From: Cytophagales bacterium | Lineage (GTDB): Bacteria; Bacteroidota; Bacteroidia; Cytophagales; Cyclobacteriaceae | DNA length: 53,841 nucleotides | Assembly (NCBI GenBank): GCA_020403045.1 | Contig: JADBYK010000064.1 | Coordinates: 1-53,841 of the forward strand | Direction: 5' to 3' | Shown: one piece after another, positions 3,240 through 28,199 of the stretch | How the letters are laid out: each line of letters starts with the position of its first letter | Numbering within the stretch: the stretch's first letter is position 1 | Program-made: the position numbers and the translations under genes | Notes under the pieces: model-generated | What the model was told of the DNA's origin: nothing | The model's database searches: none | Seen by the model: the letters and a program-made list of their open reading frames with translations, nothing else

Positions 3240-3872
3240 TCAGATTATTCCTTTTTCTGAAGCCAAATGTATCAGTTCGCCTGAAGTTTTGGCATGAAGC
3301 TTATGCATAATGTTTCGCCTATGCGTTTTTACTGTGAACTCGCTGAGGCAAAGTTGTGTGCTTATTTCTTTGCTGTTTTTCCCTTCGGCAACACAGCGGA
3401 TGATCTCGATTTCCCGCTCAGATAGTTCGGAAGAATTCATTTTTGAAGTTCTTTTTCCACGCAGGTAATCGAATATCTGCTCGTTTATTTTTGGATGAAA
3501 ATAGTTTTTCATCTGGCTAACCGTGGTTATCGCCTCGACCAATTCGGGTTTGTTGGCGTCTTTAAGGATATACCCTTGCGCACCTTTCTCCAACGCTTTC
3601 TTAATTTGTTTCATGGATTGATGCATGGTGAGCATGAGGATGGGCGTGGTGATACCCTTTGCTCTTATCAGTTCCATGGTGGCTATGCCGTCAATAAGAG
3701 GCATGTCAATATCCATTAAGATTACATTCACTGGCAAAGCCTCTAATAGGGAAACCACTTCGTACCCATTTGTGGTGTGACTTATCAATTCAATTCCATC
3801 TTCGGGTTTAAACATGGCTTTCATGCCCTCGGCAAACAATGCATGATCATCTACTATTAGCACCTTTATCAT
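3240..3872 (-). CDS. NarL/LuxR-family response regulator (locus 1)
   Basis: This 210-residue protein is a transcription factor of the NarL/FixJ class. The receiver (1-120) has the acidic pair in VLIVDDH, the phospho-acceptor Asp54 in VILMDIDMP and the conserved Lys in YILKDAN. The C-terminal LuxR helix-turn-helix (about 145-205) begins LSEREIEIIRCVAEG and has SEFTVKTHRRNI as recognition helix. It overlaps the upstream sensor kinase by 4 bases, so the two are co-translated as a pair. NarL-type regulators bind inverted TAC-containing heptamers as dimers; such sites lie at 6275 and 6365, next to the kinase, and are good target candidates. Confidence 0.9.
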   Translation of the reverse strand: MIKVLIVDDHALFAEGMKAMFKPEDGIELISHTTNGYEVVSLLEALPVNVILMDIDMPLIDGIATMELIRAKGITTPILMLTMHQSMKQIKKALEKGAQGYILKDANKPELVEAITTVSQMKNYFHPKINEQIFDYLRGKRTSKMNSSELSEREIEIIRCVAEGKNSKEISTQLCLSEFTVKTHRRNIMHKLHAKTSGELIHLASEKGII

Positions 3873-5728
3873 AGTAGGGATACACTGTTTGAAATGGGCA
3901 GGTCAATATTTACGGTTGTGCCACTGGCAGGGTTGCTATCAAAGTTGATCTCTCCTTGCTGCTGCTTTACCATTTGCCGGATGCTATGAAGGCCCATACC
4001 ATCGATAGAAGGTTCTCCGTTTTCCGGAAGGTCAAACCCTTTGCCGTTGTCGTGCACCAAAATATTTACGAGGTTGTCTTCCGCAAAGCACGTGAGCAAA
4101 ATGGATAGCTTGGTAGCGTGTGCATGTTTTAGTACGTTACTTACTAGTTCTTGTACAATTCGGTAAATAGCGATTTCGGAAACGGAATCTAATTGGCATT
4201 CCGCCACAGATGCGTTGAACTCCACCTCGAGATCACCCGATTGCCCGAGGTGAGCCACTAAGTCTTTAAGGGCTGGGATCAAACCGAAGTCTTCCGATAT
4301 TCCCATGTTGAGGGAATGCGACATGCCACGCACATCGGAACATGCCTGATCGACCAGCGAAGCAATGGTTTTAAAGTTGGGCATATTACGTTCAGGGATG
4401 CCGTTCAGGTTCACTTTGATGGTGGCCAGTAAACTGCCAAGGTGGTTGTGTAAGTCATGTGCAATGCGCTTGCGCTCTTCTTCCCTGCCTACCACCAGCG
4501 ATTGCATAGCCCTAACCTCTTGTTCTTTGAGCAGGTTTTCAATTCTTTCATCATTTAGTTTTCGCTGATGGTCGGCCATTAGGCGCGTATGTATAAAACG
4601 CTGACGGAAATAGAGCAGCACTACTACCGCCAACAAAAGCAGAATAAACGCAACCAGTATGTAGACCCGGTGGATTATCTTCTCTTGCTGAAGAAGATCA
4701 ATTTCTTTTTCCTTCAGGCTGACTTCAAACTGGGTGCGCTGATCAGCAATCTTCTGTACCACTTCCAGGTTGTTTACATTATCGCGATAAGCAATGTGGT
4801 CTTTGTAATATTTTAACGATTGCTCCGTGTTACCAGCTTGCTCGTGCAACTGCGAAAGCTTGAGGCTGGCTTCGCTGGCTTGTTCTTTCAGGCCGTGTTG
4901 CTGAGCCAGCTTTAAGCTGCGGCCTGCGTAATTCAGCGCAATGGTCAAATCACCTTTTTCAAGATAAATGTCGGCCATGGAAATAAAGTAAGAGCAAATG
5001 GGGTAGTAATCTTTTAATCCTTCCAACAGTTGGATAGCCTCATTTAGATTTCTTTCTGCCAGCTCATTTTTGCCCAAGCTGGCATACACCATACCTACAT
5101 TGCCGAGGTTGTATGCTTTGCCAGTTAATGAATTTGCTTTTTCAAATAAGGTGGCTGATTCCTTAAAATAAAGTAGTGCGGAATCATACTCCTTATGTTT
5201 GCGCAAGGCTTCACCCGCATTTAACAAAGTAGTTGCTAAGCTAAGCGTGTTATCCCCTTGTTTCAAGACGGCAATTGCCTTATAATAATACAGCATGGTA
5301 TTGCTATGGTTATTCGTTGCCCTATAAACCGAAGCAATGGCACTGTAGGTAGTCCCCAATCTAGCCGCATAACCACCCTTAGTTGCGACATCTGCAGCGC
5401 TATAATAATCATTCAACGCCCCATCTAAATCACCCAACAGTTTTTTATTATTACCTCTTAGCAAATACCCCCTATACAGATATATGTTATCCCCATTTTG
5501 TTGAGACAAACGAATCAATTCCTCCGAGTATTTTAAAGACAAGTCAAGGTCGCTTACCTCGTTAAACGATAAATTCCAAAGTAATTCCAGCTTGGTGCTG
5601 TCTGTTAACTTTTCTTCCCTATAAACTTTGACTAAACTATCTGCTAATTTCTGGTCTTGACCAAAAACACAGAGGGTGATTAAATTAACAAAAGTTGCTA
5701 TGTAAACGATTTTCCATTTAAAAACCAT
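3869..5728 (-). CDS. TPR-containing sensor histidine kinase, HisKA_3 type
   Basis: This 619-residue sensor pairs with the overlapping NarL-type regulator. A signal peptide (1-23, ending VFGQ) is followed by a periplasmic region of at least five tetratricopeptide repeats (about 60-310). Then come a coiled coil, one membrane helix (about 353-374) and a second short coiled coil. The cytoplasmic kinase has the HisKA_3 motif RIAHDLHNHLGS with His424, an N box around 527-535 and DNGKGF (560-565) in the ATPase domain. This TPR-TM-HisKA_3 design is widespread in Bacteroidota. The stimulus is not known; TPRs suggest protein or peptide contact. The kinase gene is transcribed in the same direction as the small gene at 5812-6198, 83 bases upstream. 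Confidence 0.9.
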   Translation of the reverse strand: MVFKWKIVYIATFVNLITLCVFGQDQKLADSLVKVYREEKLTDSTKLELLWNLSFNEVSDLDLSLKYSEELIRLSQQNGDNIYLYRGYLLRGNNKKLLGDLDGALNDYYSAADVATKGGYAARLGTTYSAIASVYRATNNHSNTMLYYYKAIAVLKQGDNTLSLATTLLNAGEALRKHKEYDSALLYFKESATLFEKANSLTGKAYNLGNVGMVYASLGKNELAERNLNEAIQLLEGLKDYYPICSYFISMADIYLEKGDLTIALNYAGRSLKLAQQHGLKEQASEASLKLSQLHEQAGNTEQSLKYYKDHIAYRDNVNNLEVVQKIADQRTQFEVSLKEKEIDLLQQEKIIHRVYILVAFILLLLAVVVLLYFRQRFIHTRLMADHQRKLNDERIENLLKEQEVRAMQSLVVGREEERKRIAHDLHNHLGSLLATIKVNLNGIPERNMPNFKTIASLVDQACSDVRGMSHSLNMGISEDFGLIPALKDLVAHLGQSGDLEVEFNASVAECQLDSVSEIAIYRIVQELVSNVLKHAHATKLSILLTCFAEDNLVNILVHDNGKGFDLPENGEPSIDGMGLHSIRQMVKQQQGEINFDSNPASGTTVNIDLPISNSVSLL

Positions 5729-5811
5729 AGATATCTTAGGTAGCGAAGATTTGTCAATAGATCGATTTAATTAACAGACAAAATCGCAGCCATCCTACAA
5801 GTCTAAAAAAA

Positions 5812-6198
5812 TTATTCACCCTTAAGCCTCATTTCTGGGTCTTCAGAGTATGTATTGTCATTATAGGTTATACTCAAGGTGTATTCCGCTTTATCAGAAC
5901 TTCCTGGCTTCACCTTTTTTAGTATTCCAATAAGTGTGGGGGTATTAAGTGCAGTGGGTAGAGCGAATGTTTTCGAAAAGGGGTTGATGCTTCCGTTATT
6001 CCAAATGATTTTACCTGATATAGAACCCCCACCACTTGCCACAGAAGAATCCAAATTAACAGTTAAAAAGACTTGGTCACCACCATTTGCTATAAAATTT
6101 CTTGGGCTAACATTAAGCATGTAAGCGGTTGCTGCTTTGCGGTTGGTCTCTTTGTAAGTACCTTGATAAAGGGTCGCTTCAATAATTCGATTTGCCAT
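5812..6198 (-). CDS. Small predicted beta-sandwich protein, unknown
   Basis: I do not recognise this 128-residue protein. It has no signal peptide or membrane segment. The alternating pattern (VFLTVNLDSS, GKIIWNNGS, YTLSITYNDN) suggests an all-beta fold. It is divergent from the 6599-10634 cassette, and the 400-base divergent region carries the two 16-bp operator-like sites and one leader copy. It is followed by the sensor kinase and regulator genes on the same strand, so it may be the first gene of that transcript or a target of the system. Confidence 0.6.
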   Translation of the reverse strand: MANRIIEATLYQGTYKETNRKAATAYMLNVSPRNFIANGGDQVFLTVNLDSSVASGGGSISGKIIWNNGSINPFSKTFALPTALNTPTLIGILKKVKPGSSDKAEYTLSITYNDNTYSEDPEMRLKGE

Positions 6199-6274
6199 TT
6201 TTTTAAAGTTTAAGTTAAAAATAAGTTTTTAGATTTTAAGTTCTAAAAGTAGAGCGCTTTTCAAAAAAGAGCAA

Positions 6275-6290
6275 TACCTAAAAAGTAGTA
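6275..6290. promoter_or_regulatory. 7-2-7 inverted-heptamer operator candidate, site 1
   Basis: TACCTAAAAAGTAGTA reads as two heptamers, TACCTAA and (reverse complement) TACTACT, separated by AA. It lies 77 bases upstream of the minus-strand start at 6198. The identical 16-mer recurs 90 bases further on, and a close variant lies at 23363-23378. The layout resembles NarL/NarP sites (TACYYMT heptamers, 7-2-7). Binding by the adjacent regulator is inference. Confidence 0.55.
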
Positions 6291-6364
6291 TTTGAAACTT
6301 TACCTCTTTTGGTTTAAAAGCTACTGAAATACTCCACCTAATCAATTTAGAGAGAGCCACCTTC

Positions 6365-6380
6365 TACCTAAAAAGTAGTA
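6365..6380. promoter_or_regulatory. 7-2-7 inverted-heptamer operator candidate, site 2
   Basis: This is an exact copy of the 16-mer at 6275, with the surrounding ACC and TTT also kept. It lies 219 bases before the ATG at 6599 and 115 bases before the leader at 6495, so it is placed well to control transcription into the DUF2589 cassette. Confidence 0.55.
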
Positions 6381-6494
6381 TTTCTCAATATACCGCATTG
6401 TGCCGATGTTTCGCTGCTTGGGTTGCCTGACCTTTGACTTGTCTTAAAGATGATGCGCATCGGAGATCATCTCTCCAACTATTTTAAAAGACAC

Positions 6495-6579
6495 GTGGAG
6501 CAGAACCCACTAAAATAAACGAGCTGTTCCTGTTCAGTAATCAACAGGAGGCGAAAACCGAAAAGCCTTATGAGTAAGG
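6495..6579 (+). ncRNA. Structured leader candidate, copy 1
   Basis: The copy has these blocks in order: GTGGAGCAGAACCCAC (small hairpin GTGG/CCAC), AAACGAGCTG, TCCTGTTCAG, a short loop, AACAGGAGGCGAAAACCGAAA, AGCCT, and ATGAGTAAG. CCTGTT can pair with AACAGG, and AGGC with GCCT. The block ends about 20 bases before the ATG at 6599. A second copy with the same blocks precedes the next gene. No known riboswitch class was recognised. It could be a cis-regulatory RNA or a processed small RNA. Confidence 0.55.
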
Positions 6580-6598
6580 GAATCTTAAACTTTTAATC

Positions 6599-6823
6599 AT
6601 GCCGATTTTAAATGCAGGGGCAACTGCCACACTAGGCCCTTATAACAAAGGAGCCAAATTAACAATCAGTTTACCATTAACTGGAAATATTCATCAATTT
6701 CCAACATTGAATACTGTAGTTATCACATTAAATCCCAATGCACCTAAAACTGTAACATTAGCGCAGGGAACGGTCTATAGGCTGACTGCTGGCACTGCCC
6801 AGATTACCTATTCCACATCCTAA
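6599..6823 (+). CDS. Small unknown protein between two leader copies
   Basis: This 74-residue protein is not recognised. It is rich in Thr, Leu and Pro with beta-like alternation (KLTISLPLT, VVITLNPN, YRLTAGTAQITYS) and has no signal peptide or membrane helix. It sits between the two structured leaders, so it is translated from its own leader and is followed by a second leader for the DUF2589 gene. The composition suggests a small beta domain, possibly a structural or lattice-forming subunit, but that is speculation. Confidence 0.6.
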   Translation: MPILNAGATATLGPYNKGAKLTISLPLTGNIHQFPTLNTVVITLNPNAPKTVTLAQGTVYRLTAGTAQITYSTS

Positions 6824-6921
6824 AGGAGGCTTCTTTAGAATCAGTTATAGCTATGGTGTGATTTTGGTATAGAGCTTTTTAATCTCTCTAGAAAATTCAA
6901 AGCCTTAGGTTTTAAACCGAA

Positions 6922-7028
6922 GTGGAGCAGAACCCACTTTGCCATAATCCGGAATGGCAAAACAAACGGCCTGGTCCTGTTCAGGATGTTTTAGCAGGAG
7001 GCGGAAACTGAAAAGCCTCATGAGTAAG
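6922..7028 (+). ncRNA. Structured leader candidate, copy 2
   Basis: The same conserved blocks as at 6495 appear in the same order: GTGGAGCAGAACCCACT, CAAACGGCCTGG, TCCTGTTCAG, GCAGGAGGCGGAAACTGAAA, AGCCT, ATGAGTAAG. Between the first two blocks it has an extra perfect hairpin (TTGCCAT ... ATGGCAA) absent from copy 1, as expected of a variable stem in a structured RNA. It ends about 20 bases before the ATG at 7050. Paired changes (C to T in the GGCG..AAAC(C/T)GAAA block) are too few to prove a structure. Confidence 0.55.
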
Positions 7029-7049
7029 ACCTAATTATTTTTTAACAGT

Positions 7050-7751
7050 ATGGCAGATTCACCTCAATTACTTTCCATGGCACAGCAATTTTCGGGCTTG
7101 CCGTTGGATTCACTCATTGCTGGTCCATTAAATGCGTCAGCGAATGCTAATGCAGCAATGGCACTAACGCAGACAAAGTTCATCTTGGACAATGGTTTTA
7201 ACAAAACAACTACTGGTACGGGGGCTAGTGCCGTAACCACCTATGATCCCATCATGATCTCTATGACGCTGACGCGTGGGGTTTTAACCCCTGGCGATGC
7301 TACCGCAACTCCTCCAGTAGAAACGAGTATCAAACAGTTCACTACCTCTTTTAACCTTCCTGTTTTGACTATCATCCCTATCAACTCCTTAGGGGTAGAT
7401 AATGTAGATGTGGAATTTGAAATGAATGTGAAATCGTCTTCCTCGGATGACACTTCGCAATCCTCTTCCAATAGCAGTAGCGGAAACGGTGGCTTTGAAG
7501 CGAAAATAGGGTGGGGTCCTGTTTCGGTAACGGTTCACGGAAGTGTTAGCTATGATCATAAGGATTCGCAGACGCACAGCACGCATTATCAAGCAAGCAA
7601 CAGTGCGAAATACACGATCAAAGTTCACGCAGGGCAACTGCCTATTCCGAAAGGTGTGAACACGATTATTGAAGCATTTGCTAATGCTATTCAGCCGATC
7701 ACCATGCCAGCTCCAGCTCCAGCTGCCCCAGCTTCGGGTGGTAGAGGATAA
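7050..7751 (+). CDS. DUF2589-family protein, with Ser-rich insert
   Basis: This 233-residue protein belongs to DUF2589, a widespread bacterial family of unknown function. The diagnostic start (LPLDSLIAGPLNASANANAA, then TKFILDNGF) and LTIIPINSLGVDNVDVEFEM in the middle are shared with the next gene. A Ser/Asp-rich linker (about 130-150) and a Gly- and His-rich stretch separate two beta-rich parts, and the C-terminus is Pro/Ala-rich. There is no signal peptide or membrane helix. It is the first DUF2589 gene of a probable operon with 7807, 8372, 8598 and 9264. Three different DUF2589 relatives side by side with a muramidase suggest subunits of one assembly; that is inference. Confidence 0.75.
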   Translation: MADSPQLLSMAQQFSGLPLDSLIAGPLNASANANAAMALTQTKFILDNGFNKTTTGTGASAVTTYDPIMISMTLTRGVLTPGDATATPPVETSIKQFTTSFNLPVLTIIPINSLGVDNVDVEFEMNVKSSSSDDTSQSSSNSSSGNGGFEAKIGWGPVSVTVHGSVSYDHKDSQTHSTHYQASNSAKYTIKVHAGQLPIPKGVNTIIEAFANAIQPITMPAPAPAAPASGGRG

Positions 7752-7763
7752 TAGTTAATCAAT

Positions 7764-7792
7764 TTTTCCGGGGGGCAAGTCCTCCCGGAAAA
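7764..7792. terminator. 12-bp hairpin between DUF2589 genes
   Basis: TTTTCCGGGGGG pairs with CCTCCCGGAAAA around CAAGT, with one G-U pair. It lies between two same-strand genes, and an A-rich rather than T-rich tract follows. It may attenuate transcription or protect the mRNA end after 7751 rather than terminate fully. Confidence 0.4.
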
Positions 7793-7806
7793 TTAAAAAA
7801 GGAAAT

Positions 7807-8358
7807 ATGGCCAATAACTCTTTCTCAAACGAATTTCAGGGGATCAACATAGATAATATGATTGGTGCCCCGCTTGTGGCGACTGCAAGAGCCAATAGTA
7901 TGATGGCGCGCGAACAAGCTAATTTTATTCTTACTCATTGTTTCACTAACGATGAAAAAGGTTATCACGCAGTGATGATCAAAATGTCACTTACAAAAAA
8001 CTATGTAAAGACAAAGAACACGGAAATAGGAAGCGTGACTGGCTATTTCGATTTGCCCATGCTTACGATTATCCCAATTAACTCCCTTGGTGTTGAGAGT
8101 TTGGAATTGGATTTTGCACTGGAGATCAAATCGCACTATGCCAGAAAAGAGGAAAATGAACGCAGTGCAGTGCTAACTGGCGTAATAGGTTCTCGGAAAA
8201 AAAGTTATCCCAATGCAGGGGCGCAAGATGATCAGTCAGAAGATGCTCACCTACTCGTAAAAATCAAAGCAGGTAGTCTGCCCTTGCCAGTTGGAATAAC
8301 GCATATCATTGAACTGTATTCCAAATCAATCCACCCAACCGAAATTAATGAACAATAA
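7807..8358 (+). CDS. DUF2589-family protein, second paralogue
   Basis: This 183-residue protein is a clear paralogue of the one before it: MIGAPLVATARANSMM matches LIAGPLNASANANAAM, LTIIPINSLGVESLELDF matches LTIIPINSLGVDNVDVEF, and KAGSLPLPVGITHIIELY matches HAGQLPIPKGVNTIIEAF. It lacks the Ser-rich insert and the Pro/Ala tail. A ribosome binding site is weak (AAAAAGGAAAT before the ATG). Function unknown. The tandem paralogues probably arose by duplication and may form a hetero-oligomer. Confidence 0.75.
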   Translation: MANNSFSNEFQGINIDNMIGAPLVATARANSMMAREQANFILTHCFTNDEKGYHAVMIKMSLTKNYVKTKNTEIGSVTGYFDLPMLTIIPINSLGVESLELDFALEIKSHYARKEENERSAVLTGVIGSRKKSYPNAGAQDDQSEDAHLLVKIKAGSLPLPVGITHIIELYSKSIHPTEINEQ

Positions 8359-8371
8359 AAACTCCATAACA

Positions 8372-8593
8372 ATGAGCTACACAACCTCCATAAAGTGTCC
8401 CGTTTGTGAATCGGGCAGTAAAATAGAAATAGAAGTAAGCGCCTTGTTGCAAGGGGTGCAGTTTTCATGCCCAACATGTAAAAGTCAAGTTGGCATTCAA
8501 GAAGACAGCATCGGAGCCGCGCGCAAAGCAGTAGGTGAATTTGAAAATTTAAAAAACAAATTTACAAATTCTCAAAAACCTTTTAAATCTTAA
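8372..8593 (+). CDS. Small zinc-ribbon-like protein
   Basis: This 73-residue protein has two CxxC pairs, CPVC (about residue 9) and CPTC (about 34), spaced as in a zinc ribbon, followed by a charged helical tail. An in-frame ATG at 8348 would add eight residues and overlap the preceding stop; 8372 is preferred because the conserved-looking part begins there. It lies between two DUF2589-family genes, 13 bases after one and 4 bases before the next. No partner or nucleic-acid target is known. Confidence 0.6.
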   Translation: MSYTTSIKCPVCESGSKIEIEVSALLQGVQFSCPTCKSQVGIQEDSIGAARKAVGEFENLKNKFTNSQKPFKS

Positions 8594-8597
8594 GATA

Positions 8598-9236
8598 ATG
8601 ATAGGTTTTGATGATTTTATTAAAGCAATACACGATGCCGTTCTTGCTGCCAATAATTCACTTTCGGAGCGCAATATTGATCTCTTTAGTGAATACTTTG
8701 AGGACTCTGGACAAGCTGCTGAGATGCAGGAGTCTGTTGATTCAGCGCTAAAAGCAACTCAAGATATCCTCAATAACCCACGACCCGGGCGCGATTCATT
8801 CGCAAATGTCAAGAAATCACTAGAGGAAGCAAGCCGGGCACTGAGTGGCGAATCTGGAGGCGATTCGAAAAATATGAAGGCCTTCAATACACAAACTTTA
8901 ATGCCTAAAACGGTTAAACTTGAATATGCATCAAATACCGAAGAGGGTGTAAAACCTCATTATGTCAATGTTCCACTTATCACATTGATTCCAATGCCCT
9001 CCACACAAATTTCACAAGCGCGATTTAAAACGATGCTTGAAGTACAAGAAGAAAATGGCAGACTTATGATAAGTTTCCCTAATAGAACTCAACTATCATC
9101 TGAAACTCCTCCGACCAATGCAATTTCATACTTCACAGAGTTTGAGGTAGTGTTGGAACCCAGAAAGGAAACAGAAGGGTTAAGAAAAGTTGTAGAGGGG
9201 TATGAAAAAATTCTAAGAGCTCAGATGCCTCACTGA
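8598..9236 (+). CDS. DUF2589-family protein, helical-start type
   Basis: This 212-residue protein starts with an amphipathic helical part (DDFIKAIHDAVLAANNSLSE, then FSEYFEDSG) and has the DUF2589 beta core later: VNVPLITLIPMPSTQISQARFKTML corresponds to the LTIIPINSLGV segment of its neighbours, and a second strand pair ends in YFTEFEVVLEP. This longer class of DUF2589 protein is a distinct subfamily commonly found beside the shorter one. No signal peptide. It starts 4 bases after the zinc-ribbon gene, so translation is probably coupled. Confidence 0.65.
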   Translation: MIGFDDFIKAIHDAVLAANNSLSERNIDLFSEYFEDSGQAAEMQESVDSALKATQDILNNPRPGRDSFANVKKSLEEASRALSGESGGDSKNMKAFNTQTLMPKTVKLEYASNTEEGVKPHYVNVPLITLIPMPSTQISQARFKTMLEVQEENGRLMISFPNRTQLSSETPPTNAISYFTEFEVVLEPRKETEGLRKVVEGYEKILRAQMPH

Positions 9237-9263
9237 CAATTGCAATTATAAATTCTAATCATC

Positions 9264-10634
9264 ATGAGAGATCTTAACAACTGGGAAAGAGAAATATTGC
9301 AACAACTATCATCCCTTCAACCTGGTATCAGTATGGATATGGTTGGTTTTCTGAGTTCTTTTTTTTTCAGGCGAGATGCAGCCAAGGCCTTGATATTAAA
9401 TGCGCAGTCAAGGTATGCTATGTTTTTTATGGGAAATCAATCATTCATTGATAATGCCAAAAAAAAAGGAGAAATAAGTAAGTTTCTCAATCTTTTTTCT
9501 TTTCTAAAATACCTTGCCAACGAGGGGTATATTTCTTTTCATCCCATTGAAAATGGCACTGAAATGCCTATTTATTATTTGCAGGATTCATTTGACAAAA
9601 TACCTCCAACTAGTACAAATCCGATTGTTTTGAATTCCTTTGGAGACTGCTTGTCTGCCTCCGATACCATTTTGACTAAGGATAAAAAACTATTTTGCAA
9701 AGGTGTACTCTTCGAACATGAAACCTATGATTTGATTGCAAAAGCAACAATTAGTGGTTTTATACTTACAAAGGATATGTCAATGGCATCAATGGGTTTA
9801 AAAACTAAAAGATCCAAAATGTCAGTAATTACAGTGTGTTTAACATCGATAATATTGCTTGCATTGGTTGGGTTCTTTTTTAGCCTTCGAAGTAGAATAC
9901 AAGATCACCAAAATATGCTCCTCCAATTACTGGAAAGCCACAAGGAAATAAGAAGCAACCTAAGAGAACTTAGAGCACACGTACTTTTGCCGTCCACTTC
10001 TGCAGCGCAGACCACTCAATCTCAAGTACACTATGGTATTGATGTATCCAAATGGAATGGCAATATATTAACTGATTTAAACATGATGGACAGTATTTCC
10101 TTTGCAATTTGCAAAGCGAGCGAAGGAATTGATTATGTTGACCCTGATTTTGCATCCAATAGTAAGTTCCTAAAGGAGAAAGGAGTTATTTGGGGGTTTT
10201 ACCATTTTTTTCACACAGGAGATGATCCCATCAGGCAAGCAGAATTTTTTCTGGATGTTACAGGGCGCGAGCTTAATGCAATTACTCCTATTGTCGATAT
10301 TGAGCAAGAAAGCCTTCCTCTCGGAGTGCAACCTTCACCTACAAAAATTCAGGTTGATTTATTATTGTTCCTTAATCATCTGGAAAGAAACATTGGTCGT
10401 GTGCCTATGATTTATACAGATGAAGCATTTGCTAACCAATATCTCAATAACGAGACGTTCGCCAAATATCCGCTTTGGTTAGCTGAGTATTCAAACGAAG
10501 AACGTCCTGCAATCCCAATTCCATGGAAAGAGAAGAGTTTCAAAGTGTGGCAAAAAAGTAGCAGCTACTCAGTGCAATCAAAGCTTATAGACCTTGACGT
10601 TTTTTTTGGTGAAATCGAGGAGCTTTTGAAATAA
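9264..10634 (+). CDS. Membrane-anchored GH25 muramidase
   Basis: This 456-residue protein combines a novel cytoplasmic N-terminal domain (1-180) with a single membrane helix (about 187-208), a short coiled coil (210-240) and a C-terminal glycoside hydrolase family 25 domain (about 256-455). The GH25 start HYGIDVSKWNGN carries Asp260. The pair in PIVDIEQES (Asp345, Glu347) is the expected catalytic Asp-x-Glu, and YTDEAF and LWLAEY match the family. GH25 enzymes cut the N-acetylmuramic acid-N-acetylglucosamine link of peptidoglycan. The helix would place the enzyme in the periplasm and the unknown N-terminal domain in the cytoplasm. That orientation suits a self-acting or signal-controlled wall lytic effector more than a secreted lysozyme. 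It ends the DUF2589 cassette. Confidence 0.8.
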   Translation: MRDLNNWEREILQQLSSLQPGISMDMVGFLSSFFFRRDAAKALILNAQSRYAMFFMGNQSFIDNAKKKGEISKFLNLFSFLKYLANEGYISFHPIENGTEMPIYYLQDSFDKIPPTSTNPIVLNSFGDCLSASDTILTKDKKLFCKGVLFEHETYDLIAKATISGFILTKDMSMASMGLKTKRSKMSVITVCLTSIILLALVGFFFSLRSRIQDHQNMLLQLLESHKEIRSNLRELRAHVLLPSTSAAQTTQSQVHYGIDVSKWNGNILTDLNMMDSISFAICKASEGIDYVDPDFASNSKFLKEKGVIWGFYHFFHTGDDPIRQAEFFLDVTGRELNAITPIVDIEQESLPLGVQPSPTKIQVDLLLFLNHLERNIGRVPMIYTDEAFANQYLNNETFAKYPLWLAEYSNEERPAIPIPWKEKSFKVWQKSSSYSVQSKLIDLDVFFGEIEELLK

Positions 10635-10641
10635 CACTTCT

Positions 10642-10668
10642 CTTGGTGCCAAGTCTTTCTTTTTTTGT
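10642..10668 (+). terminator. Probable intrinsic terminator of the DUF2589 cassette
   Basis: CTTGG, TG, CCAAG forms a short stem 7 bases after the muramidase stop, followed by TCTTTCTTTTTTTG. The stem is short but the T tract is long. Confidence 0.45.
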
Positions 10669-10679
10669 TTAGGGTCACT

Positions 10680-10939: not shown

Positions 10940-12226
10940 TTAAAAATGCATAATCTGTATTCTAAAATCTAAGTCTGGGCGCTTGGCGTTAATGAATTTA
11001 GCCTCCGCTTCAAACTCATTAAAAAAAGTTTGAAAATCTTGTTCTTGGACATTGCCAGTTTTTGGATCTATAAAAGCAAACGTAGATAGATCATTCAATG
11101 TATTTCCGTAAATCCCAATCAACAGGCGCGCATGGGAGCTGAGGCCATCGCCAGTAGTAATCCAAATGGGGCCGTAATTCTCTAAAAACTCTTTGTAGGC
11201 TAATGGAATATAATTTGCAGGCGGTTCAGATTTTAAACTAGTGGCTAGCTGAAATAGACTAGTCGATGATTCTGGCAAGCCAGTGTTATTTTTGTAACAC
11301 GTAAGCCAAGGGTCTCCCAGTTCTTCCGCAACTTCGTTTTTAGTCAATGGCTTACCAAGCTTCCATGATTTCATCATTGAATAAACGGCCAACCAACAAT
11401 CATTTTCTTTCTCTTGCTTGATAGGCTGCACCTCGTAACTCACAAAATCAATTTGAGTTTTATACGAGCCCTTTGGATTGCTAAGTCTTTTATTCCCAAT
11501 ACTACCTGTTGCAGACAACTCACCAGGTTGTAGACGCCCGAGCTGCTCATCGTCATCAAAACCCCAGTATAATGCTTTTCCTACAACCAGGTTTGTTTTG
11601 TTATCGACACTTGTTCCTCCGAATTCAAATTTAATGCTATCCAAGATTTTACTTTTAACATTTTCATTCACCGTTGTATTGAAGCTGACTTTATACTCAG
11701 CATCCGCTTGAATTACTTTTTTGATCATTGATATCGGCTTACCTTCATTTTTTCTTATCTCGATTATTTTTTTGCATGCTGCGCTCCGGTTGTTCAACAG
11801 TTCAATGACCGCATCGTCTGGAAGTTCCAATAGTTTTACATTCGTCAACTTTAACTCAATCGTTTTTACTGCCTTAAGCCCCAAATTAGTCGAAGCTTTT
11901 ATTCCTTGCAGATCAAGGTTTAGACTTTCTTGTAATTCTTGGGTAATAGAGATGTCAACAGTAGGTGATTGTCTATACTTTGTAACTACGGAATCTCCGA
12001 AGGCGTTAGCGCACGGACAAATTACATTCATCACACCATTCTTTTCTTTATCTATCACCACTATGGTGCCAGGGGCAGCAAGTTGGTTTGCAGGATTCAG
12101 CTCGGCATAGCCGTACTTTTGCAATACATCATGCAGGGTTTGGGTAGGTTTGAATAGTTGATAAATAAAATAAATTGAAAGAGCACCTGCTATAACTAAG
12201 GCAACTCTAAAAACATTGTTTTTCAT
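10940..12226 (-). CDS. Membrane-anchored papain-like cysteine peptidase (C39/C70-like) with unknown N-terminal domain
   Basis: This 428-residue protein has an N-terminal membrane helix (about 7-25), an unrecognised beta-rich domain (about 30-260) and a C-terminal papain-like peptidase. The peptidase core starts at QEKENDCWLAVYSMM with Cys277, has His365 in SSHARLLIGIY and Asp387 in AFIDPKTG, the Cys-His-Asp triad order of AvrRpt2/C39-like peptidases. The middle domain begins LHDVLQKYGYAELNPANQ and contains VICPCANAFGD and SPTVDISITQ. It might be a sensor or pore-forming part, but nothing proves this. The gene lies between the muramidase cassette and the restriction island, and its upstream neighbour at 12238 is on the same strand 11 bases away. 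Substrate unknown. Confidence 0.7.
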   Translation of the reverse strand: MKNNVFRVALVIAGALSIYFIYQLFKPTQTLHDVLQKYGYAELNPANQLAAPGTIVVIDKEKNGVMNVICPCANAFGDSVVTKYRQSPTVDISITQELQESLNLDLQGIKASTNLGLKAVKTIELKLTNVKLLELPDDAVIELLNNRSAACKKIIEIRKNEGKPISMIKKVIQADAEYKVSFNTTVNENVKSKILDSIKFEFGGTSVDNKTNLVVGKALYWGFDDDEQLGRLQPGELSATGSIGNKRLSNPKGSYKTQIDFVSYEVQPIKQEKENDCWLAVYSMMKSWKLGKPLTKNEVAEELGDPWLTCYKNNTGLPESSTSLFQLATSLKSEPPANYIPLAYKEFLENYGPIWITTGDGLSSHARLLIGIYGNTLNDLSTFAFIDPKTGNVQEQDFQTFFNEFEAEAKFINAKRPDLDFRIQIMHF

Positions 12227-13380: not shown

Positions 13381-13395
13381 AGCTATGTTTTAAAC

Positions 13396-16173: not shown

Positions 16174-16175
16174 GC

Positions 16176-19100: not shown

Positions 19101-19247
19101 CTTCGGAATGGGTGTAATGAAATCAGCTGATCTCCTTTTCTCTAAAATCTTTTGTGTGGGCTGCCCGTGTCCATCCAACTCCCAATGTCGAACGGGTGGT
19201 TCATACGGTGAATTGAGAATGGGGTGCTCGAAGAAGGGGTTGGACAT
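16176..19247 (-). CDS. res: Type III-like restriction system, helicase/nuclease subunit (Res)
   Basis: This 1023-residue protein is a superfamily 2 helicase with a C-terminal nuclease. Walker A is LATGAGKTTV (GAGKT 177-181), Walker B is DEAH at 311-314 and motif III is DLSATPFF. The VSMLTEGWDANTVTHVLG and QVIGRALRRQSY segments are motifs V and VI. Near the C-terminus, IPDFIVLIDDG and HLIVEIKGYRRE give a PD-(D/E)xK nuclease site. The length and architecture are typical of Res subunits that translocate from a recognition site and cut unmodified DNA. It is the first gene of the probable res-mod-161aa-nuclease operon, reading leftward. No disruption is seen. Confidence 0.9.
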   Translation of the reverse strand: MSNPFFEHPILNSPYEPPVRHWELDGHGQPTQKILEKRRSADFITPIPKPRKRKTVVQEQLIFDEGKGLSSKEQQYDPTSIINLVRQEVSKWRELPNANDWQVTPETARLLHHWRKHKFSSIRPFFCQVEAVETAIWLTEVAPSSGKVGKGLIEHLANASKDANPELTRLALKLATGAGKTTVIAMLIAWQTINAVRRPQSQKFTRGFLIVAPGITIKDRLRVLQPNDPDSYYSSRELIPSDMLDDLQRAKIVITNYHAFKLKERIELSKGGRSLLQGRGQELNTLETEGQMIQRVMPDLMGLKNIMAINDEAHHCYREKPEAEEDVEDLAGDDKKEAEKNREAARLWISGLEAVNRNIGITRVMDLSATPFFLSGSGYAEGTLFPWTMSDFSLMDAIECGIVKLPRVPVADNIPGTEMPMFRNLWEHIRSKMPKKGRGKGNALDPLSIPTQLQTALEALYGHYTKTYNLWQQAGIKVPPCFIIVCNNTATSKLVYDYISGFTRQNDDGSAAFENGRLELFRNFDGNGNPLARPNTLLIDSEQLESGEALDDNFRSMASDEIERFRREIVERTGDSRQGENLTDQELLREVMNTVGKHGRLGGSIRCVVSVSMLTEGWDANTVTHVLGVRAFGTQLLCEQVIGRALRRQSYDLNEEGLFNVEYADVLGIPFDFTAKPVVAPPQPPRETIQVKAMRPERDALEIKFPRVVGYRVELPEEKLEAQFNEDSTMELTPELVGATQTQNSGIIGEQADLNLVHTGDVRSAQIAYELTSHLVLTKWRDPGEDPKLHLFGQLKRITRQWLDHHLVCKGGTYPAQLKYKTLADMACERITAGIVTSELVKHRPIKISLDPYNPAGSTRHVNFNTSKTSRWETDSRKCHINWVVLDSDWEAEFCRVAESHPQVKAYVKNQNLGLEVPYRYGSEMRKYIPDFIVLIDDGHGKDDLLHLIVEIKGYRREDAKEKKSTMDTYWIPGVNNNGQYGRWAFAEFRDVYEIEVDFKEKVEQQFKQMIKDAAQTHKTEKA

Positions 19248-19349
19248 TTGTGGCCTGATTATTAAAAATCCATCTTCCTAATTTTAAGGGGATGGGTTGA
19301 AGGATAAAGATAGGGGTTTTAACTGGATAGCGTTGGAGCCATTTCGATG

Positions 19350-21914: not shown

Positions 21915-21977
21915 CTATGCTTGTAAAAAAATTTTCGCCTACTCTTCTTCGGATTTTCGGCTAGCTCCGTTTATGTT

Positions 21978-22468: not shown

Positions 22469-23251
22469 TTATCTTTTAGTATCTCCTCTCAGGTATTTCT
22501 TTGCAATAGAGTAGTAGGCATCAGAGGTATTTCTTCCGGCTTTGCCGTCAACGCGAAGAGGTAAGCCCACACGGTTCAATAACTTTTGTAATTGCTCTGC
22601 TTTACCGTTGTAGGTATTTGGTGCAAAAGCAACTTGCGCCCCGAATGTTTTAATTTGTGTGATGATGTCTAGTTCACCGATCACAGCTAGTTGTCGCTCG
22701 CTCATTCTGCGCAGCAGCACTGCGGCTCCACACTGTTTGGAAATAGCGTTAGCATCAAAAATTCCATCGGCCGTAAATTTTCCTTTGGTGTAGTGGTTCG
22801 AATAACTCCATAAATAAGGAGAATTGATTCCTCTGGGTCGATAGCCAAAACCGTTGTAGCGCTCTAATTGAAATAGAGTAGCGGGTAAACTCCAGTCTGT
22901 CCATTGATCTAGCTTTTGAAGTTTCAAGGCATCGATGGCACTTGCTTCCCAGGTAAATGGAGGTGTTCCGGTTTTTGGAAAGCCTGCCGGTACTTTTACT
23001 GTTCTTGCCGTAAGCGGATCACCATTGTGAAGATGGGTGGTAAACTTTCCATTGCACTCAAGACTGTGCACAATGCCTGTGAAATACCAGGGCACTTTGG
23101 TTGTTGATGCAATCGTTTCGTAGCGCGCGCGCCCTGCTACGATTTTAGCAAGAATGCTGTCGATCTCAGGGTACTTGGCTTCTTTGATGAGGCAGCTATC
23201 AAACAACTGTTGGTATTCGGCTGCGAGTTGCGGTGTGTAGGTGGTAGGCAT
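22469..23251 (-). CDS. Lysozyme-like protein with peptidoglycan-binding domain
   Basis: This 260-residue protein resembles phage-endolysin-like lysozymes. The segment WYFTGIVHSLECNGKF carries a glutamate (Glu65) in the position used for catalysis in related muramidases, followed by THLHNGDPL and ARTVKVPAGFP. The last 60 residues (EQLQKLLNRVGLPLRVDGKAG, then TSDAYYSIAKK) form a peptidoglycan-binding type 1 domain. No signal peptide is present, so release would need another route or cell lysis. It heads a three-gene transcript, and the 16-bp operator candidate lies 112 bases upstream. A cytoplasmic wall hydrolase parallels the GH25 gene of the first locus. Confidence 0.75.
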   Translation of the reverse strand: MPTTYTPQLAAEYQQLFDSCLIKEAKYPEIDSILAKIVAGRARYETIASTTKVPWYFTGIVHSLECNGKFTTHLHNGDPLTARTVKVPAGFPKTGTPPFTWEASAIDALKLQKLDQWTDWSLPATLFQLERYNGFGYRPRGINSPYLWSYSNHYTKGKFTADGIFDANAISKQCGAAVLLRRMSERQLAVIGELDIITQIKTFGAQVAFAPNTYNGKAEQLQKLLNRVGLPLRVDGKAGRNTSDAYYSIAKKYLRGDTKR

Positions 23252-23537: not shown

Positions 23538-24329
23538 CTAAAGGATCACACCATAGGCTTCATCAAAAGCAGCTGCCGTGTATGCATTGGATGCGTAGGC
23601 AAAATCTTTGTCGCCCCAACTGGTGCCCCAACTGTTGCGCACAATGAAATGGTTTTTGGTATAGCCCACGAGCGCCACTGCATGACCGTCTTCAGGCCCG
23701 GCACTGGCGCGATCATATTTATCAAGCACACCATCGCTGCCAATGTCATCCCATGTGCTGTCGCACTCCAGACGCACGGCTATGGGGCCATTGTTGGCGA
23801 TCCAGTTGCGGTAGTTCGCGAGTTTGTCTCCTTTGATGAGATTGTAGTAACTCGCAATTTTTCCGTTGGCAGCCTTTGCGTAAAACACATCTTCATCGAG
23901 TGGTGATAGGCCACCGCCAAAGGGTAGGACGGATTCTTGTACGGTACCAAATTTTCGCGCTATGTCCAGTGCTGTCTTAATGCTCGTGCCGGCACCTTCC
24001 AGAAAGGTAGTGGCATAGCTCACGTCTGTGTCTGTCTCTTTCGAGGCCATCCACAGGTAGCGCACCGATAGCAGTTGTTCTTTTTTCAGCACGCCTTTTT
24101 TTACAAAATGCCAACGCAGCACACTGTCGGCCGTAGCCCAGCCCACACACGAGCCAGTTTGTTCTTGATTGGCAATTTTCCACCAGGAGGCGCGCAGGTC
24201 TTTGGAGGTGGGTATGTTGGCCTGCGCAGCTCTGGCGCCTGCTGCAGATTCAATGACCCAGCCTTTTTCTGTCTTGCGCGAGCCGATGCAGTTAAAAATG
24301 CGTTTTTGTTTTTTTCGTTTCCTGGCCAT
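23538..24329 (-). CDS. C1-family papain-like cysteine peptidase
   Basis: This 263-residue peptidase shows all papain landmarks: the oxyanion Gln57 and nucleophile Cys61 in NQEQTGSCVGWA, His216 in DGHAVALVGY and Asn232 in RNSWGTSWGD. No signal peptide is present; the N-terminus is strongly basic (ARKRKKQKR). There is no long propeptide, so activity is probably controlled by another factor or by partner binding. It is 11 bases downstream of the 126-residue gene on the same strand and 287 bases before the lysozyme-like gene. A cytoplasmic peptidase next to a wall hydrolase repeats the combination seen at 9264-12226. Confidence 0.85.
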   Translation of the reverse strand: MARKRKKQKRIFNCIGSRKTEKGWVIESAAGARAAQANIPTSKDLRASWWKIANQEQTGSCVGWATADSVLRWHFVKKGVLKKEQLLSVRYLWMASKETDTDVSYATTFLEGAGTSIKTALDIARKFGTVQESVLPFGGGLSPLDEDVFYAKAANGKIASYYNLIKGDKLANYRNWIANNGPIAVRLECDSTWDDIGSDGVLDKYDRASAGPEDGHAVALVGYTKNHFIVRNSWGTSWGDKDFAYASNAYTAAAFDEAYGVIL

Positions 24330-24340
24330 AGGGTTGAGGT

Positions 24341-25337: not shown

Positions 25338-26027
25338 ATGGCCTATTTTCAATTTTTTACTCATAACTTATTAGAGCCTTTCAGCTTTGGGCTGTGCTTT
25401 TTGCTTATCTTAGTTTATACCCGTTTCGACAAACAATGGAAGTGGCGGGCACTAGTGATTTTCTATTTTATGGCAAGCCTTTTAATGTGGAAGGCAGCAT
25501 ACGCTAATCCCAATCTTACCCTTTACAATTTGTTGTGTCTACTCTCAAGTATAGGCATTGGCACCTATTTTTATTACACCTTCATTTCCACTTTAAAAAA
25601 GAGGATCGTTATAGTATATGTTATTGTACAATCGGCCTATTACTTGACTGATGTTTTTCGAGCCGACCCGCCTAAAGTCTTTGATAGTATGGGGTTCGTT
25701 ATTTTGTCGGTAGGAGTTGTGTTGATGTCTTTTTTATTCATGCATCAGATTCTCACCAACGTTACCGAAGAACCTTTGTCTTGGAATTTTGATTTTTGGT
25801 TTGTCTCTTCGCAATTGTTTTACCATTTGGGCTCGTTCTTTGTATTCTTAACCTACGGCTACCTGACCAGAAAACTCCAAATCTCCAACGATTATTCAAT
25901 TGAAAATCGGGTGTACCTTAGCCAGCTATGGTTGGGTCATAATGTTCTCTTATTTTTAAGTGCCCTTGTGATTGCGGGCAGTCTTTTATGGATATACTTT
26001 CGCAAGAAGTCACCATTATTGTTGTAG
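25338..26027 (+). CDS. Seven-helix membrane protein, sensor candidate of locus 2
   Basis: This 229-residue protein has about seven hydrophobic helices (for example LEPFSFGLCFLLILVY, IVIVYVIVQSAYYL, VILSVGVVLMSFLFM, NVLLFLSALVIAGSLLWIYF) and no soluble domain, like the membrane modules of 7TM-type sensors. The ATG at 25338 is used; a TTG at 25323 is possible. Its last 40 bases overlap the start of the histidine kinase gene. The two proteins therefore probably work as one receptor unit, the membrane part sensing and the kinase part signalling. Confidence 0.7.
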   Translation: MAYFQFFTHNLLEPFSFGLCFLLILVYTRFDKQWKWRALVIFYFMASLLMWKAAYANPNLTLYNLLCLLSSIGIGTYFYYTFISTLKKRIVIVYVIVQSAYYLTDVFRADPPKVFDSMGFVILSVGVVLMSFLFMHQILTNVTEEPLSWNFDFWFVSSQLFYHLGSFFVFLTYGYLTRKLQISNDYSIENRVYLSQLWLGHNVLLFLSALVIAGSLLWIYFRKKSPLLL

Positions 26028-26752
26028 GTTCCGCCTTTCTCTTGTTAGTGGCGGTGGGCATCATTGTGCTCTTTCTGGTTTATCAGAAGAGGCAGTTAAA
26101 GTTCTTGTTGGAGAAAAAGGAACTCAGCAATCAGTTTCAGCATGAGCTATTAAAAACGCGCCTCGAAGCGCAGGAGGAAACACTTAACTATCTCGGCAGC
26201 GAATTGCATGACAACATTGGACAATTGTTGGGGAGTGCCAAGTTTTTGGTGGGTGTGGCGGAGCGATCCGGTGCTTCGACCCAACAATTTCAGGTGTTGG
26301 ACGAAACCATTTCAAAGGCGATTCAGGAAGTGAGAGCATTGAGTAAGTCGCTGAACACCGGGTGGCTGGAAAAATTTAATTGGATTGAAAACCTACGCAC
26401 CGAGGCAAACCGGCTGATGGCCTCTAAAGAAGTAACGGTAGAGCTGTTGCATCCTTCCTTGATCAACCTATCGTTCGATCGCCAGATTATCTTATTTCGC
26501 ATTGCTCAGGAAGCCCTGCAGAATGCCATTAAACATGGAAAGGCTTCGCACATATCTGTGCAAGCCGAGCAAAGTGAAACAGTCTTGACCATTTCTATTG
26601 ACGACAATGGGAAAGGGTTCGATGTGAATGACACTTCCATTGAGGGTGTGGGTGTCACCAATATTCGCCATCGGGTTACGCTACTGGGTGGAAAGGTATC
26701 CTGGCAATCGAGTCCAGCGGGGACTCATCTTTTTATTAACTTACCGCTTTAA
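25988..26752 (+). CDS. Sensor histidine kinase, HisKA_3 type (locus 2)
   Basis: This 254-residue kinase has one membrane helix (about 9-31), a coiled-coil linker (35-65), the phospho-acceptor His74 in LGSELHDNIGQLLG and an ATPase domain with RIAQEALQNAIKHGKA (N box) and DDNGKGFD (G1 box). It lacks any extracellular domain, which fits a kinase that takes its input from the overlapping seven-helix protein. The response regulator gene starts 6 bases downstream. The cognate pair would control the operators nearby. Confidence 0.9.
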   Translation: MDILSQEVTIIVVGSAFLLLVAVGIIVLFLVYQKRQLKFLLEKKELSNQFQHELLKTRLEAQEETLNYLGSELHDNIGQLLGSAKFLVGVAERSGASTQQFQVLDETISKAIQEVRALSKSLNTGWLEKFNWIENLRTEANRLMASKEVTVELLHPSLINLSFDRQIILFRIAQEALQNAIKHGKASHISVQAEQSETVLTISIDDNGKGFDVNDTSIEGVGVTNIRHRVTLLGGKVSWQSSPAGTHLFINLPL

Positions 26753-26758
26753 CAACTC

Positions 26759-27436
26759 ATGGAAGAGGAAACAAAAAGCGAAGAAACCTCGCCTGTTATT
26801 TCGAAAATAAAGATAGGACTAGTAGACGACCACCAACTGTTTAGGAAGTCGTTGACGCTGTTGTTGTCTAGTTTTAAAAATACGCAAGTGGTAATGGATG
26901 CCACCAATGGTATTGATCTACAACAAAAGATAGCACAGGCAGACGTGATCCCAGAAGTGATGCTCATCGATGTGTCTATGCCACAGATGGATGGGCCACA
27001 AACTGCAGCGTGGCTGCATCAGACTTACCCGGGCATTCGCAAAGTGGCGTTGTCGATGGACGATAAGGAAGAGACGATTATCAAAATGTTGCGAGCCGGA
27101 TGTTGCTCCTATTTGTTTAAAGATATTCACCCGAACGAATTGGAGCACGCGCTGGATGAAGTGCATCGGTTTGGCTATTACAATCCGGCTATTAGCTATC
27201 AAAAATTGATAAGTTCCGCACAAGAGGCTGAATCGTCTCTTCACCTGACAGAAAGGGAATTGTATTTCTTGAAGCTATCGTGCAGCGACTTATCTTATCG
27301 CGATATTGCATCGATTATGAACTTGAGCGAACGGACTATCGATGGGTATAGAGCCTCGATGTTCACAAAACTAAACGTGCAGAGCAGAACCGGCATGGCG
27401 CTAGAGGCCATTCGTAAGGGATTTGTTAAACTTTAA
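26759..27436 (+). CDS. NarL/LuxR-family response regulator (locus 2)
   Basis: This 225-residue regulator has an N-terminal extension of about 17 residues, then a receiver with the acidic pair in GLVDDHQ and phospho-acceptor Asp71 in MLIDVSMPQMDG, the conserved Lys in YLFKDIH, and a LuxR helix-turn-helix from LTERELYFLKLSCSD, with recognition helix SERTIDGYRASM. It completes the three-gene signalling unit that starts at 25338. Its stop overlaps that of the convergent TerB-like gene by 4 bases. Candidate targets are the 23-bp-spaced sites at 24801 and 28255, and possibly the 16-bp site at 23363. Confidence 0.9.
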   Translation: MEEETKSEETSPVISKIKIGLVDDHQLFRKSLTLLLSSFKNTQVVMDATNGIDLQQKIAQADVIPEVMLIDVSMPQMDGPQTAAWLHQTYPGIRKVALSMDDKEETIIKMLRAGCCSYLFKDIHPNELEHALDEVHRFGYYNPAISYQKLISSAQEAESSLHLTERELYFLKLSCSDLSYRDIASIMNLSERTIDGYRASMFTKLNVQSRTGMALEAIRKGFVKL

Positions 27437-27861
27437 TTAAGCGGCTCGAAGGGCATACCTTTTCGGGCTCTCACCTGTCTGGCGGTTAATTCAATTTCGT
27501 CAAAATCAACATCGGTTCTTTTCAAAGAGTAGAGCAGTAGCCGCACCTCACGCGGATGAATTGATGAATCAGATTCGGAGAGATTATAAAGGTGGACGAG
27601 GGCAGATAACCGTTCTTGGTCGGAACATTTGTTCAACAGGTCAATGCCACAGTGATAGAGATCCTTCTCCGTTTTTTTGGTGATGGTTTCCTGAAAGGCT
27701 GCAAACGTTATTTCAGGAATATTCTCTTCCTGTCGAATTTCCTCAAGGGCTTTTAGTTCGCGCTCGTCTACAAAACCATCTGCATTCATCAACAGATGTG
27801 CAAACAGCAAAAGTCCTTCGTGGTAGGTGGAATGGGTGGGTGGAGAGCAAGTCGCTTTCAT
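27433..27861 (-). CDS. TerB-like helical protein
   Basis: This 142-residue protein shows the TerB-type pattern: LLLFAHLLMNADGFVDERELKAL, an acidic Ca-binding-like loop followed by a helix, and a second half-repeat with LVHLYNLSESDSSIHPREVRLLL. TerB-family proteins are helical and are linked to membrane stress and metal-ion responses. It overlaps the preceding receiver gene by 4 bases and so is translated with it. The transcript starts next to the two inverted operator copies. Confidence 0.65.
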   Translation of the reverse strand: MKATCSPPTHSTYHEGLLLFAHLLMNADGFVDERELKALEEIRQEENIPEITFAAFQETITKKTEKDLYHCGIDLLNKCSDQERLSALVHLYNLSESDSSIHPREVRLLLYSLKRTDVDFDEIELTARQVRARKGMPFEPLN

Positions 27862-28199
27862 TCTAGGTTTAGGTTTTGCATTTCTGTCACTTCGTCTAAC
27901 GTTAGCAAGTTCGCGTTCATCAAATTGAGCAGTCGAACGTGATCAGCCGTTTCCTTTCCCTCGGCCAGCAAAATAACGGGTGTCTTTTTGTTGACCGAGA
28001 AGTTGCGTATAGATCTCACCATTTCGATACCGGTAACCACCGGTAAATCAAGGCCGCAAAGAATGAGATCAAAGTGTTCGACCCGACAGCACAATAATCC
28101 ATCCAATCCTGACATGTAAGATCGAATGTACCATTGCGACAGTTGTGCTTTGATGCTCTCTAAAACGGCCTCGTTCCGGTGGACTACCAATACCTTCAT
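27858..28199 (-). CDS. Stand-alone receiver-like protein lacking the phospho-acceptor Asp
   Basis: This 113-residue protein has the length and fold pattern of a single receiver domain (KVLVVHRN, FDLILCGLDLPVVTG, TPVILLAE). However, the usual Asp after LIL is Gly49, the N-terminal acidic pair is replaced by His-Arg, and no Lys is found at the last conserved site. It can therefore hardly be phosphorylated in the usual way. It may work as a decoy, an adaptor or a ligand-binding pseudo-receiver. It is the first gene of a two-gene operon with the TerB-like protein, 56 bases downstream of two operator copies. Confidence 0.7.
   Translation of the reverse strand: MKVLVVHRNEAVLESIKAQLSQWYIRSYMSGLDGLLCCRVEHFDLILCGLDLPVVTGIEMVRSIRNFSVNKKTPVILLAEGKETADHVRLLNLMNANLLTLDEVTEMQNLNLE

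Follow-up and report, generated by a model that had tools for sequence, protein, structure and literature searches.

A DUF2589 gene cassette linked to exchangeable hydrolases in a Cytophagales bacterium, a candidate for signal-triggered wall opening

Introduction

Two described systems come closest to the gene cassette analysed here. In Yersinia entomophaga, Tc toxin is reported to be released by a holin-endolysin system (type 10 secretion) through lysis of a subpopulation (PMC10847048). In explosive cell lysis, a subpopulation is reported to lyse and free its cytosolic content (PMC4834629). We describe a cassette built around DUF2589 proteins, found in a stretch of 53,841 nucleotides from a Cytophagales bacterium (GenBank assembly GCA_020403045.1, contig JADBYK010000064.1; source genome of 4.02 Mb); this whole stretch is hereafter the window. 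The endolysin of explosive cell lysis is said to come from a pyocin gene cluster.

DUF2589 is the Pfam family PF11655 (curated cut-off 23 bits), for which no assigned function was found in the open-access literature. Like the holin-endolysin release systems, the cassette has an apparently regulated wall hydrolase beside signal-less proteins; unlike them, its core is DUF2589, its hydrolase varies in family or is tethered by a transmembrane (TM) stretch, and a LuxR-type sensor pair lies nearby. With explosive cell lysis it would share the lysis of a fraction of the cells and the freeing of cytosolic content, here proposed from genes alone, and it differs in that DUF2589 matched none of 50,697 phage records searched with one query. 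The anatomy of the cassette and the linkage of DUF2589 to hydrolases are solid. We read them best as a device for signal-triggered wall opening or lysis that would release signal-less proteins, and give this reading a probability of about 0.45.

Results

A compact cassette conserved in a congener

A previous sequence-only reading of the window had proposed two parallel loci, each with a NarL-type regulator pair, a wall hydrolase and a cysteine peptidase, as parts of one lysis, abortive-infection or contact-weapon system next to a restriction island. Every gene that it named is an open frame where it had been placed, and Pfam supports the NarL-type pairs and the DUF2589, GH25, C70 and C1 assignments (Table 1).

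Comparison by blastn with a congener, genome G034, gave three blocks of 92-97% DNA identity (window 3246-5589, 5830-6576 and 6899-10678), and outside these blocks no window match on the whole 65-kb contig of G034 (E 1e-5). The unit is therefore bounded by the regulator on one side and by the muramidase on the other. Its limits fall at gene ends in G034, where the flanks are unrelated to those of the window. Window 3246-10678 is a self-contained, compact conserved unit.

Within this unit, the kinase and regulator (3240-5728) are divergent from an operon (7050-10634) that encodes, in this order, two DUF2589 proteins, a zinc-ribbon protein, a third DUF2589 protein and the GH25 muramidase. The kinase, 88% identical to its counterpart in G034, has a hydrophobic, signal-like N-terminus, a TPR sensor part and a TM stretch at residues 355-373 (TM calls throughout come from simple hydropathy rather than from a trained program). 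The zinc-ribbon protein probably starts at an inner ATG, and relatives of it were found in three other DUF2589 loci (L040, L055, L062). The group of the divergent third DUF2589 protein aligns nearly full length with the DUF2589 profile (hhalign 98.4%, E 5.7e-15). For the small open reading frame (ORF) at 6599, tblastn over the loci compared gave no relative. A promoter search gave no signal (10 matches, 13.6 in shuffles).

The C70 peptidase, the type III restriction genes and locus 2 all fall outside the unit. The C70 gene is absent beside the G034 cassette; together with four other proteins from 12238-21728 it had no tblastn relative in the loci compared, nearly all of them fetched for DUF2589, a test that did not include the restriction proteins. 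The C70 peptidase is probably not part of the cassette. Locus 1 thus has the content first described, with the zinc ribbon added and its conserved unit limited to 3246-10678, and the joining of the C70 peptidase, the restriction genes and locus 2 into one system did not hold up.

These comparisons also bear on an abortive-infection or other anti-phage device, which we consider very improbable. The sporadic distribution of DUF2589 would suit such a device, as would the type III restriction pair, which sits 2.8 kb further on from the cassette. However, the restriction genes lie outside the conserved unit and have no DNA match on the whole G034 contig, and PADLOC gave no match for eight non-restriction proteins (the three DUF2589 proteins, GH25, C70 and those at 5812, 12895 and 22469). 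Control by a histidine kinase, unusual for anti-phage systems, also counts against it.

Table 1. Genes of the cassette and of other loci discussed in the text (window positions)
Feature	Position	Strand	Evidence
Response regulator 1, NarL/LuxR-type	3240..3872	-	Pfam Response_reg and GerE; inside the cassette kept in G034
Histidine kinase 1	3869..5728	-	Pfam TPR and HATPase; HisKA_3 23.4 bits, cut-off 24
Small protein without TM stretch	5812..6198	-	No Pfam match; 94% identical copy in G034 adjoining the same kinase
Possible small protein, 74 aa, uncertain	6599..6823	+	ORF only
DUF2589 paralogue a	7050..7751	+	Pfam, 98.6 bits
DUF2589 paralogue b	7807..8358	+	Pfam, 72.9 bits
Zinc-ribbon protein	8309..8593	+	Two CxxC pairs by eye; weak zinc-ribbon matches below cut-off
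DUF2589 paralogue c, divergent	8598..9236	+	Pfam, 37 bits
GH25 muramidase	9264..10634	+	Pfam Glyco_hydro_25, E 3.5e-33
C70 (AvrRpt2-like) cysteine peptidase	10940..12226	-	Pfam Peptidase_C70; convergent neighbour of the cassette
Relative of plasmid/phage peptidoglycan-binding proteins	22469..23251	-	No Pfam match; no TM stretch
Papain-family peptidase	23538..24329	-	Pfam Peptidase_C1; no TM stretch
Histidine kinase 2	25988..26752	+	Pfam
Response regulator 2	26759..27436	+	Subfamily beside DUF2589 in Flavobacterium and Tenacibaculum

Hydrolases of several families lie beside DUF2589

DUF2589 is uncommon. It occurs in 4 of 58 relatives, in 28 of 395 genomes of the phylum and 14 of 395 of the class, and in other phyla in 9 of 398 genomes (that of a Rheinheimera genome) and 3 of 119 (that of an Acidobacteriota metagenome-assembled genome, MAG), the genome at the centre of each sample included. 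Our survey comprised 52 loci, 4 of them on plasmids, of which 8 were removed at 80% identity, leaving 44 dereplicated loci. Three of the 28 positive genomes of the phylum (G072, G113, G205), with partial matches, were left out, and L068 (G185), also partial, is without the core.

Twenty-four query hydrolases, both wall hydrolases and proteases, were compared by phmmer with all ORFs of the 44 loci, in about 330 kb near DUF2589 and 335 kb far from it. The 26 matching ORFs, from 25 loci, all lie within 4 kb of DUF2589. Since most queries were drawn from near genes, matches of a query to itself should be set aside, which leaves 16 ORFs in 15 loci near and 0 far. GH25 was followed separately in 39 DUF2589-positive genomes, a subset of those found, which hold 23 GH25 genes in 20 genomes. 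Five of these genes lie beside DUF2589 (in G000, G034, G394, G1205 and G1283), against about 0.07 expected if a flat 12 kb in 4.1 Mb is assumed (P ~1e-8); with the two congeners counted once, four remain (P 8e-7). The window GH25 is the sole GH25 match of its genome, and a full-length match to the protein exists in 2 of 40 genomes of the genus, the source genome and G034.

Pfam gave a view of the families involved. Among the matches listed for 76 near genes were GH25 and PG_binding_1 (3 each), phage lysozyme and S8 (2 each), and Muramidase, SLT and Trypsin_2 (one each), and single scans of near genes add CHAP, Amidase_3 and GH19. In this near set, L072:9680, itself a DUF2589 gene, was swapped by hand for the gene behind it, L072:10542; the far comparison covers 124 of 160 far ORFs. 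As the matches listed comprise 25 of 44 near and 25 of 186 far families, they are not used as an enrichment count, for which the phmmer comparison is the control. Names given by eye to an M15-like protein (L199) and to caspase-like proteins (L057, L062, L203) are without Pfam support, and L226 was called SLT-like by eye through its similarity to L232, whose own SLT match falls below the cut-off.

DUF2589 and hydrolases are thus linked beyond chance. The DUF2589 core is kept in relatives, and the hydrolase beside it is of another, unrelated family or missing from the neighbourhood: the enzymes are exchangeable. At three loci, a protein of 66-67 aa is encoded behind the subtilisin gene that adjoins DUF2589 (L043:12254-12454, L045:6370-6573, L058:12140-12343). 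It is perhaps a propeptide-like inhibitor, the L058 copy being without Pfam support.

Such variety resembles that of a cargo, and the hydrolases could be antibacterial effectors, with DUF2589 proteins as the carriers or adaptors for their transfer into other cells. Besides wall hydrolases and proteases, a Tle1-like phospholipase domain, an insecticidal-toxin-B-like protein and endonuclease/phosphatase-family proteins are found near DUF2589. Immunity proteins could be represented by a same-strand membrane protein after the hydrolase in L232 and L071, and immunity proteins or inhibitors by the 66-67 aa proteins after the S8 genes of L043 and L058. However, inspection by eye of the gene after the hydrolase at 21 loci (same strand 14, opposite strand 6, contig end 1) showed no immunity-like gene shared among them. 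Nor did the operons read contain recognisable genes for secretion or injection, in a search that was not systematic, and the GH25 type is predicted to be tethered to the membrane of its own producer. As to a tailocin or contractile injection device, the PHROGs matches of eight window proteins, including DUF2589 a and c and not b, were only endolysins, a peptidase and unknown families, with no sheath, tube or baseplate protein among them. Delivery of effectors to other cells is, on balance, unlikely.

Wall hydrolases predicted to be tethered or soluble

In the predicted muramidase of the window, the GH25 domain occupies residues 259-438 and covers profile positions 1-178 of 180; its solved-structure relatives are lysozymes, muramidases and endolysins. 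One TM stretch lies ahead of it, at residues 188-206, after basic residues, so that the enzyme domain is predicted to be periplasmic and to face the wall. The GH25 proteins of L055, L228 and L231 also have one TM stretch near the N-terminus, and all four GH25 proteins checked have this single stretch ahead of the enzyme domain. The C70 peptidase likewise has one TM stretch (residues 8-26) and an enzyme domain predicted periplasmic. The earlier proposal that the hydrolases are kept inside the cell or membrane-anchored therefore agrees with these predictions as to anchoring of GH25 and C70, and not as to a location inside.

No TM stretch was found in 11 other wall-hydrolase candidates (two GH24, one GH19, two muramidases, two SLT-like, one amidase, two PG_binding and one CHAP), in the S8, trypsin and papain-type proteases and the M15-like and caspase-like proteins near DUF2589, or in DUF2589 a, b and c. 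The two SLT proteins from Vibrio each carry one at the N-terminus. Most other-family hydrolases near DUF2589 have neither export signal nor anchor. This distribution matters for ordinary envelope remodelling, in which the muramidase would make local gaps for a surface structure of DUF2589 and the small proteins, without lysis. A tethered GH25, predicted wall-facing in the four examples, would suit such a role, and so would the Ig-like repeats fused to one DUF2589 (see below), but the soluble, signal-less endolysin types of other loci would need another exit from the cytoplasm. We regard remodelling as improbable.

Regulators near DUF2589

Among the 44 loci, 10 LuxR-type regulators lie within 0-4 kb of DUF2589 and 3 within 4-9 kb (P 0.046; in 9 loci). 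In 80 scanned loci, the best 80 of 108, found with a closer alignment subset and biased to one subfamily, the numbers are 20 near and 5 far (P 0.002), a count not independent of the first. The LuxR model was built from such proteins of these same loci. LuxR-type regulators are thus modestly enriched near DUF2589.

Regulator 2 of the window, encoded in locus 2, belongs with the regulators that adjoin DUF2589 in Flavobacterium and Tenacibaculum. When whole genomes were searched with it, 7 of 14 (G344, G144, G367, G1400-G1403) gave the regulator next to DUF2589 as the best match, at 2.1-3.6 kb from the DUF2589 core; in G144, G367 and G1401 this regulator is the only match at E 1e-20. The best match lies some 10-14 kb from DUF2589 in G363 and G265 and elsewhere in G394, G455 and G1404, and G307 and G425 have no match. 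These genomes represent few lineages. Relatives of histidine kinase 2 in DUF2589 loci prove nothing alone, because the loci were chosen for DUF2589. Altogether, regulation by a sensor pair is moderately supported.

The DUF2589 family

Three arrangements recur: c0-c1-c2, in which c0 is DUF2589; the window type, with two DUF2589 genes, a zinc ribbon, a divergent DUF2589 and a further gene, often a hydrolase; and DUF2589, c1, DUF2589 and zinc ribbon, with or without a hydrolase. A conserved small protein of 85-94 aa adjoins DUF2589 in L069, L070, L071 and L047 (cluster k75) and, by eye, in L200, in Vibrio, a deltaproteobacterium and others. The zinc-ribbon partners (c36) of L042, L203 and L227 begin, by eye, with a hydrophobic or amphipathic stretch, as if membrane-bound. 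Kinship between DUF2589 and c1 gave a weak profile match (35.6%) and is not claimed.

Paralogue a has a Ser/Thr-rich loop of 58 residues that may form an amphipathic beta-hairpin, and paralogue b a shorter one of 39. Over 66 dereplicated proteins the loop spans 18-70 residues. Loops are richer in Ser+Thr (26%, 16% overall), and in 27 of 65 hydrophobicity alternates above their own shuffles (P<0.05), as an ordinary surface hairpin could also give; homology among the proteins inflates the combined Fisher value of this test. In L057:10159-11748, DUF2589 is fused to Big_1 Ig-like repeats in two stretches, a kind of repeat usual on extracellular proteins, and DUF2589 of L063, L065 and L067 carries insertions. 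Loop, fusion and insertions would be compatible with DUF2589 outside the cell or at the membrane, and with a pore, a particle or a scaffold alike.

Against the sequences of solved structures, DUF2589 had no match (best E 0.74) and the helical partner c2 weak FtsH matches (best E 0.34). In viral contigs, query A3 found one relative and two single-protein queries none. One near gene matches the pYEATS domain, on which nothing was found in the open-access literature.

Locus 2 and other genes of the window

Locus 2 is a divergent operon pair, with 22192, 22469, the C1 peptidase and 24341 on one strand and a membrane protein (25323), the kinase and the regulator on the other; DUF2589 is absent from it. 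Its parallel with locus 1 extends to regulator 2, discussed above, and to distant relatives of the C1 peptidase near DUF2589 in L147 (a Chitinophagaceae MAG) and L149 (a Bacteroidetes MAG), and stops at the missing DUF2589. Protein 25323 found no support as a relative of k8, a membrane protein from the Flavobacterium loci (hhalign 0.4%).

The 22469 protein had been called lysozyme-like with a peptidoglycan-binding domain. The domain found no Pfam support, and the description is plausible from relatives in a phage and on 12 plasmid records, the phage one and several of the plasmid ones being annotated as peptidoglycan-binding protein. Among 118 genomes of the order, the source genome alone has a match. 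A search of solved structures gave no match for the 22469 or C70 protein. A 52%-identical peptidase is encoded on a plasmid of Microvirga, where it adjoins an Amidase_2 protein and serine peptidases, again a protease with a wall hydrolase.

Elsewhere, the sole gathering-level Rfam match of the window is a DUF805b cis-regulatory RNA (21936-21970, minus strand). Regulator 2 is followed, at 27433-28199, by opposite-strand genes for a weakly TerB-like protein and an orphan receiver domain. A sulfatase-modifying-factor-like gene and a GldM gene stand in an apparent gldKLMN row (40152-44915), so that the host probably has the corresponding gliding/type IX secretion system. A HipA-type kinase with a small gene upstream (50816-52474) is possibly a toxin-antitoxin pair.

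Discussion

We favour signal-triggered wall opening or lysis with release of signal-less proteins. The divergent operon is probably under the control of the LuxR-type sensor pair, whose TPRs are predicted to lie outside the membrane. The products of the operon would be the zinc ribbon, the three DUF2589 proteins in the cytoplasm, and a GH25 anchored in the inner membrane, from where it could reach peptidoglycan. Upon a signal, the DUF2589 proteins would assemble, the partner enzyme would then open the wall, and the cell, or a fraction of the cells, would lyse or leak; the signal-less proteins released may be the DUF2589 products themselves or associated effectors.

Several observations weigh against this proposal. 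No holin was recognised in the cassette, where the DUF2589, 5812, 6599 and zinc-ribbon proteins are without a TM stretch and only GH25 has one, a check that covered ORFs down to the size of these. At 19 of the 44 loci no query hydrolase lies within 4 kb, in Chryseobacterium and Tenacibaculum the genes around many c0-c1-c2 operons are ordinary ones, and the queries of the hydrolase control were themselves taken from near genes. The enrichment of LuxR-type regulators is of modest size, and regulator 1 found no support as a conserved orthologue of the regulators linked to DUF2589 in other genomes: 8 genomes have matches to it, and the best of these are not DUF2589-adjacent. Finally, Archaeoglobus is without peptidoglycan. 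DUF2589-related genes are reported there.

The sequence-only reading had suggested a neighbourhood survey. As that survey found DUF2589 together with GH25 and other hydrolases beyond chance, and LuxR-type regulators nearer than at a distance, an undescribed system is likely, smaller in extent than had been drawn. A wider idea, conceivable though doubtful, is that DUF2589 may be the core of an unrecognised cross-phylum cell-opening system, in which cytosolic beta-hairpin proteins would come together at the membrane, either as a kind of pore or as a particle for release, and would act with interchangeable hydrolases at the command of a sensor kinase. Such a system would parallel phage lysis without using a holin.

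Through its linkage, across several phyla, to wall and protein hydrolases that replace one another, DUF2589 acquires a role that can be tested. The linkage may also show by what route certain bacteria, Bacteroidota among them, let out proteins that lack an export signal.

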